From the NCBI GenBank assembly GCA_023957235.1, contig JAMLHI010000002.1, positions 325,836 to 389,835 on the forward strand: a stretch of DNA of 64,000 bases, written 5' to 3'. Under the pieces are notes generated by a model that was given only the letters and a program-made list of their open reading frames with translations, ran no database searches and was not told where the DNA came from. The position numbers and the translations under genes are program-made. Of the stretch, positions 45,359-46,539 are shown one piece after another; the stretch's first letter is position 1, and each line of letters opens with the position of its first letter. The DNA is from Chitinophagales bacterium (GTDB taxonomy: Bacteria > Bacteroidota > Bacteroidia > Chitinophagales > JADIYW01).

Positions 45359-45821
45359 TGAGATTAATTAGGTTGGTATGATATACAAACAAAGTTATAA
45401 AACATTTTTTTTCAAAAACCAATTGAAATTCAAGGCTCTAGAGCACATTTTGTTGGATGAACGTTTGTTAAAAAAAATTGATGTCACAACTAATTAAAAA
45501 TATTTCACTTAGAAATAAATAAAAAAAAATATTTATTAATTTGCGCTTTTTTAAAAAATTATTATCATTCATTAAAAATTCGTTAAAAAAAACAGAGTTA
45601 TAGTAACAAAACCTCAAAATAACCTGCAAAACATTAAAAGCATACAAATAACATGACGAAAAATTGCAAATGTGAAAACGATTCAATGAAGCTATTAGGC
45701 TAACAATTCCAGCATATAATCAGAGCAATTGGGTAAAAAGAAGCAAAAAATATTTGATTTTTGACTTGGATGCCCTAGTGCGGAATTCAAAAGCAAAGAC
45801 TCTTCCAAAATCAATCAAAAA
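45359..45821. other. Gene-poor region between gltB and the accessory unit
   Basis: It contains the gltB promoter near 45390-45422. The rest is very AT-rich and shows no convincing coding frame. A 72-codon minus-strand frame at 45468-45686 has no family resemblance or initiation context. Confidence 0.5.
45390..45422 (-). promoter_or_regulatory. Promoter of gltBD
   Basis: TAACTTTG (45397-45390, minus strand) matches the -7 box, with TTG (45422-45420) 22 bp upstream. Predicted leader about 25 nt. Confidence 0.5.
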
Positions 45822-45852
45822 AGCCCTGACAACAATAAATGCTATCAGGGCT
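45822..45852 (-). terminator. Rho-independent terminator of the 111-aa gene
   Basis: AGCCCTGA and TCAGGGCT pair perfectly around a 15-nt loop. On the minus strand the stem is followed by TTTTTTGATT, 8 bp after the stop of the small gene. Confidence 0.85.
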
Positions 45853-45859
45853 AGTTATT

Positions 45860-46195
45860 TTAGATCTTGTAAATTCTCAATTTATTTGTTTTAAGATTAA
45901 AAAACTTGTTGATATCAGGGTGATTAAAGACACTTAGGATATCATTCCAGATGGAATTGGTTTCATATTTAAAAATCTCCATAGGAATCTGCTGATTTTC
46001 GTATCTTTCTTTGAGTAGAATATATCTTTTGTCGGAATAAAGCAGTTCAGTTTTTAATTTGGTAAATTCGGTTTGGACGACATAATCTCTTATCGGAATA
46101 TATTTGAAACACTGTGCCTTGTACCTACTTTTAGCTTTTTGGATGAAATCTAAGACTAATTGCTCTTTGGATGAAATGACATTGTTTGTTTTCAT
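45860..46195 (-). CDS. Unknown 111-residue protein with structured leader RNA
   Basis: I do not recognise a family. The protein is soluble, predicted mainly helical and rich in Lys, Tyr and Ile, with one Cys and no signal peptide or TM helix. Notable segments are LDFIQKAKSRYKAQCFKYI and NSIWNDILSVFNHPDINKFF. It is supported as a real gene by its transcription unit: a TATCTTTG box at 46449-46442, a ~240-nt leader with a three-way-junction RNA, a clean ATG at 46195, and a T-tailed hairpin 8 bp after the stop. It lies among decayed accessory genes. Regulation by the leader is an inference. Confidence 0.65.
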   Translation of the reverse strand: MKTNNVISSKEQLVLDFIQKAKSRYKAQCFKYIPIRDYVVQTEFTKLKTELLYSDKRYILLKERYENQQIPMEIFKYETNSIWNDILSVFNHPDINKFFNLKTNKLRIYKI

Positions 46196-46279
46196 GGAAT
46201 TTAAGATTTAAGATTTAAAAATGTGCGTCTCAGTCAATATGACCTTTTTTGAGTAGGGCACTTGAGCGAAGACTTTATG

Positions 46280-46359
46280 TCAAAGAACTGCTGTGCTTAA
46301 AGGCACACTACTTCTCATCTAGCTCTAATTGAGCCTCATGAGGTTAGTCAGTTCTTCGA
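46280..46359 (-). ncRNA. Three-way-junction leader RNA (candidate cis-regulatory element)
   Basis: Read on the minus strand. P1 is an 11-bp stem: UCGAAGAACUG (46359-46349) with CAGUUCUUUGA (46290-46280), one G-U. It closes two arms. P2 has ACUA/UAGU (46348-46345 with 46310-46307), CUCAU/AUGAG (46342-46338 with 46318-46314) and GCUC/GAGC (46334-46331 with 46325-46322) separated by small internal loops. P3 has UGUGC/GCACA (46307-46303 with 46296-46292). The G-U in P1 would be a C-A mismatch in the plus strand, which favours minus-strand RNA. It ends 85 nt before the 111-aa gene. The 3' arm GUUCUUUGACA resembles a boxA antitermination sequence. Confidence 0.65.
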
Positions 46360-46441
46360 TATGTCAATCGCTAATATTTCATCTTAAATCCCTGTATATT
46401 TAGTCTTTTTAGATTTCGAATACTATTATCAAATAATTTGC

Positions 46442-46449
46442 CAAAGATA
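46442..46449 (-). promoter_or_regulatory. Candidate -7 element for the structured leader and 111-aa gene
   Basis: TATCTTTG on the minus strand fits TAnnTTTG. No good TTG is present at -33. Transcription from here would start near 46435 and include the whole three-way junction. Confidence 0.4.
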
Positions 46450-46539
46450 TGAAATAAGAATAGAAGTGAAAAATAAATTCAATTATTCTATAATAATATT
46501 TTCACTTTTTTGAAACAACCTAAATTTTAAAATTGATTT

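Follow-up and report, generated by a model that had tools for sequence, protein, structure and literature searches.

The window, by which we mean the whole 64-kb stretch of Chitinophagales DNA that was analysed, carries on its minus strand a small transcription unit in which a structured leader precedes a gene for a 111-aa protein. The first-pass annotation had described a complete unit there, made of a promoter box, a leader of ~240 nt, a small gene and a T-tailed terminator, and all of these parts are indeed in place, the block as a whole being conserved in a second Chitinophagales genome, the MAG G002. Transcription probably starts around position 46435, and the unit consists of the following features, with coordinates given in the window.

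46442..46449, minus strand: promoter box of the Bacteroidota -7 type, TATCTTTG, found also ahead of the rRNA operon in this genome; conserved in G002, and TATATTTG in G001
46196..46435, minus strand: 5' leader of ~240 nt, from conservation against G002 and folding z-scores
46381..46392, minus strand: outer 12-bp helix, 5' strand GGGAUUUAAGAU, from folding and comparison with G002
46349..46359, minus strand: closing stem, anti-boxA strand UCGAAGAACUG, from folding and comparison with G002
46314..46342, minus strand: arm 1 of the three-way junction, from folding; in G002 the lower stem pairs again after slipping by 1 nt
46292..46307, minus strand: arm 2, hairpin TGTGCCTTTAAGCACA, just upstream of boxA
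46277..46288, minus strand: boxA element GTTCTTTGACAT, by its sequence an antitermination signal of the NusB/S10 type; the first 9 nt pair with anti-boxA, and it matches the rRNA and CRISPR sites of its own genome
46196..46207, minus strand: outer 12-bp helix, 3' strand AUCUUAAAUUCC, which occupies the twelve bases immediately upstream of the AUG; all 12 pairs are kept in G002
45860..46195, minus strand: CDS of 111 aa with its ATG at 46195; homologues in G002 and G001, Ka/Ks 0.19, AF2 model
45822..45852, minus strand: intrinsic terminator, a 13-bp stem and T tail, conserved in G002

An Rfam scan of the 64-kb window reported tRNAs only, and the leader feeds the 111-aa CDS and its terminator, not rRNA genes or a repeat array.

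The gene and its relatives in the genus

The genus contributes three genomes to the set compared here, each of which has a copy of the gene. In G002, homology spans window positions 45806-46474 (669 bp, 85% DNA identity), beginning just upstream of the promoter box and ending just past the terminator, and the comparison, which covered 20 kb, found no other match in the flanks. Since genomes of this genus are broadly scrambled in gene order, the differing neighbourhood is not in itself a sign of mobility. Upstream of the unit in G002 (L003, 2129-3099) we noted broken ATPase-like ORFs and pieces of an IS630-type transposase, both named by eye. The leader is 84% identical between the two species, against ~60% at synonymous sites, and must thus be under constraint. 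The third genome, G001, has a diverged homologue of the gene that begins with the same MKxNN, a promoter box of the TAnnTTTG type and a leader of ~280 nt, the sequence of which has diverged beyond alignment except for the motif GTTCTTTGACA.

The encoded protein is basic, with a pI of 9.6 (9.5-9.8 among the homologues), and is 78% identical to its counterpart in G002 and 33-34% identical to that in G001; the Ka/Ks of 0.19 between the window and G002 indicates that the gene is under purifying selection. The AF2 model is all-helical, with five helices and a pTM of 0.66, and comparison with the PDB using Foldseek and VIA-align gave no match beyond the level of any helical bundle. Searches of Pfam, NCBIfam, PADLOC and PHROGs returned nothing convincing, with no Pfam family above the cut-off, in agreement with the earlier description of a gene of no recognised family, and a sequence search of the PDB yielded nothing at useful E-values. 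The G002 protein did align to the Effector-associated domain 11 (EAD11, PF19964; E 0.08, 13.4 bits), residues 43-88 falling on profile positions 29-74 in a sensible register; we rejected membership, as 13.4 bits was reached by one of the three homologues against a curated cut-off of 26 bits, the window and G001 proteins giving no match, and no EAD11 was found in the window's own genome. Distant protein matches within the order were likewise discarded after six-frame translations had placed them in unrelated long ORFs.

The leader fold

At the centre of the leader, 80 nt (46359-46280, minus strand) fold into a three-way junction with two arms and an 11-bp closing stem, UCGAAGAACUG/CAGUUCUUUGA, that includes one G-U pair, much as the first-pass annotation had drawn it. 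Its view that so much nested pairing is unlikely by chance is borne out: the 111-nt core has a folding energy of -40.8 kcal/mol, where shuffled sequences give -22.9 +/- 3.4 (z -5.3), none of 200 shuffles being as stable, and the z-score of the entire leader lies between -4.3 and -5.7. The structure nevertheless extends beyond the junction, and the outer helix formed by 46392-46381 and 46207-46196 had been missed. The idea that the one G-U pair fixes the strand was overstated, since arm 1 has a second G-U pair; it is the promoter, the CDS and the boxA that determine the strand of the unit. A hairpin of the form GUGC...GCAC followed by a U-run lies between boxA and the AUG in the window, and was considered as an intrinsic attenuator and rejected, as it is not kept in G002. 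Within the leader there is also a three-codon frame running from ATG to TAG (46382-46371, minus strand), which reads ATG AAA TAT TAG in the window and ATG GAA CAT TAG in G002 and may be due to chance.

The covariation analysis rests on two alignable leaders, those of the window and G002, the leader of G001 having been left out as too diverged for whole-leader alignment. In the outer helix, G002 shows one compensatory change from U-A to A-U and one change from G-U to A-U, with 12 of the 12 pairs kept, and the lower stem of arm 1 turns from CUCAU/AUGAG in the window into CUCGA/UCGGG, re-pairing by way of the 1-nt slip. The upper part of arm 1, arm 2 and the anti-boxA stem are invariant, and the last of these is without covariation support because it does not vary between two such close species. 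When substitutions were placed at random over the whole leader, the observed ones broke fewer pairs than random in one direction of the comparison (P 0.006), the other direction giving P 0.46, and covariation across the whole leader is thus equivocal. The homologues proposed as a check of the fold deliver a compensatory change in the outer helix, but from two leaders only and not in the closing stem.

The Rfam search, at gathering as well as relaxed thresholds, gave chance-level matches only and no family for the leader, so that the suspected overlap with a known RNA motif did not materialise. Among 398 genomes of the order, our covariance model recovered the leader in G000 and G002 only, plus two weak extra matches, in G264 and G207, which lie inside coding sequence or lack the motif and were judged to be chance given the 398 genomes searched. 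A search of the same 398 genomes for the anti-boxA...boxA pattern found no further homologous leader. The distribution is not that of a metabolite riboswitch, for which one would look for the structure across many genomes and ahead of varied genes.

Identity and pairing of the boxA element

boxA is a short signal that normally marks rRNA and CRISPR transcripts for uninterrupted transcription. The motif GTTCTTTGACA is the only one in the leader seen in all three species, and its place is nearly fixed: G001 keeps GTTCTTTGACAT 97 nt upstream of the AUG, against 94 and 95 nt in the window and G002. In the window's own genome, GTTCWTTGACAK has eight matches, three of them within long ORFs; the other five fall in the 16S leader, the 16S-23S spacer, another rRNA leader at the end of a contig, the cas2-CRISPR leader and the present leader. 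From these positions at rRNA and CRISPR leaders we conclude that the motif is, as far as sequence can tell, the clade's boxA and hence a NusB/S10 site. The element GTTCTTTGACAT differs by one base from the GTTCATTGACAT of the 16S leader and spacer and is identical to that of the CRISPR leader; both the agreement with the genome's own rRNA operon and the fixed place across species that would be asked of a boxA are found here. Against the identification, we estimate that a 12-mer of this kind would be matched ~0.3 times by chance in the non-coding DNA of a genome. The consensus GYTCTTTAANA is gamma-proteobacterial (PMC5725501), and the site in this Bacteroidota host is one base off it.

The association with CRISPR leaders recurs in the relatives. 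In G002 this 11-mer is found between a CRISPR array and cas genes; in G005 a CRISPR-like array is preceded by the GTTCATTGACAT form. boxA elements in CRISPR leaders have reportedly been described elsewhere too. As a separate observation, Chitinophagales CRISPR leaders can carry, between cas2 and the array, a boxA that matches the one in the rRNA operon of the same genome (L022 1500-3011, in the window's own genome at C1 ~133119; L034, on C28 of G002). Palindromic elements with the ends GTTCTTTGACA...TGTCAAAGAAC, or close to these, were also seen in the order (L089 and L091 in G103, L075 in G266 and L087 in G383); those of G103 have a GTAGGGAGTC core in common, and a tyrA-like ORF lies ~150 nt downstream of one such element.

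What had gone unnoticed in the closing stem is that its 3' strand CAGUUCUUUGA is the boxA, the 5' strand being a fully matched anti-boxA with one G-U pair. This makes NusB/S10 the likely partner, as in a protein-binding leader, and not a small-molecule ligand. The predicted cost of opening the boxA is 12.1 kcal/mol in the window and 8.6 kcal/mol in G002, above 100 of 100 and 99 of 100 shuffles, respectively, in which the boxA was held fixed, while predictions for the rRNA and CRISPR boxAs of these genomes range from 2.3 to 6.3 kcal/mol. In G001, opening costs 3.0 kcal/mol, which is not above the shuffles, and the boxA is mostly open in the predicted fold. Structure prediction thus shows the boxA masked in the two close species but not in the third.

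Regulatory readings and comparison with known systems

The first-pass annotation had offered a riboswitch, an attenuator or a protein-binding leader. A structured regulatory leader with NusB/S10 as its likely partner is what stands of this, the intrinsic attenuator having been rejected and the riboswitch having found no positive support. Our preferred reading, to which we would give about an even chance, is that of an mRNA leader under Nus-factor (NusB/S10-boxA) control whose boxA is masked by structure. Within it, we infer that NusB/S10 binds, that control runs in the direction described next and that the gene is linked to ribosome synthesis. In the folded leader, the boxA would be masked and the start region closed, leaving RNA polymerase open to Rho and translation low; if NusB/S10 captured the boxA as it emerged, or if the junction opened, the elongation complex would become resistant to termination, the leader would be remodelled and the small basic protein made. 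The gene would thereby be coupled to free S10/NusB and so to the status of ribosome synthesis. More tentatively, and we would rather bet against it than for it, the three-way junction may act as a reversible boxA switch, hiding the NusB/S10 signal and deciding whether RNA polymerase on a protein-coding gene is converted to the termination-resistant form typical of rRNA. With the boxA 94-97 nt from the start codon instead of within ~50 nt as in the suhB type, and 94 nt from it in the window, the arrangement does not fit occlusion of the ribosome site as at suhB.

We consider it unlikely, if a serious competitor, that the element is a plain boxA of the rRNA and CRISPR kind, shielding a long untranslated and structured leader from Rho, with the fold serving RNA stability or processing and the masking being unregulated. 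A long untranslated leader and its boxA are what all three species keep, strong masking is not, and in the predictions the rRNA and some of the CRISPR boxAs are partly paired as well; yet the masking in the window and G002 exceeds that of 99-100 of 100 shuffles, and the anti-boxA strand is invariant between the two. It is quite unlikely, in our judgement, that the leader responds in cis to some other ligand or protein, be it as a riboswitch or through autoregulation by the 111-aa protein, in which case the outer helix would gate translation and the boxA be incidental or a part of the stem. The strong nested fold, the outer helix directly before the AUG with its compensatory change and the basic product (pI 9.5-9.8) would all suit such a leader, whereas it has no Rfam match, does not occur elsewhere in the 398 genomes of the order, unlike metabolite riboswitches, and does not account for GTTCTTTGACA being kept in G001 where the remainder has changed. 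Finally, the idea that the block is a palindromic element of the MITE/REP type, mobile or repetitive, or else folds by chance, in either case without a regulatory role, brought to mind by the differing surroundings of the block in the two species and by the GTTCTTTGACA palindromes of other members of the order, is very improbable given the single copy in the window's own genome, the lack of visible transposition footprints and of relatives on phages, plasmids or viral contigs, a gene order that is scrambled in the genus anyway, and the constraint on leader and gene (Ka/Ks 0.19).

Most demonstrations of Nus-factor control beyond rRNA come from gamma-proteobacteria, and our literature search turned up no mRNA leader with a boxA described from Bacteroidota. 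The site helps to define a usable boxA consensus for the clade, GTTCWTTGACAT, drawn from rRNA leaders, spacer and CRISPR leaders. If the Nus-factor reading is true, masking of the boxA would turn antitermination into a step that can be switched, and the unit could illustrate how a small lineage-specific gene is tied to ribosome synthesis.

With the structured leaders of Rfam, the present one shares the compact and nested architecture of a cis-leader and differs in matching no family even at relaxed thresholds. A boxA in the 5' UTRs of suhB (Enterobacteriaceae) and of the ParE-like toxin gene CKO_00699 (Citrobacter koseri) represses via Nus factors; sites were sought there within a 50-nt window, and boxA sites farther away can work (PMC5725501). 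Our leader resembles these in having a boxA in the 5' UTR of a protein-coding gene at a conserved, near-fixed position, and differs in the distance of 94-97 nt to the AUG, in the predicted pairing with an anti-boxA in a three-way junction, in its Bacteroidota host and in its gene, which encodes no Nus factor and no recognised toxin. The boxAs of the rRNA operon and CRISPR leaders in the same genome share its sequence, GTTC(A/T)TTGACA(T), and the rRNA operon also has the same type of promoter box; in contrast to those sites, what follows here is a 111-aa gene and its terminator, and the predicted cost of opening the boxA is 8.6-12 kcal/mol instead of 2.3-6.3 kcal/mol.
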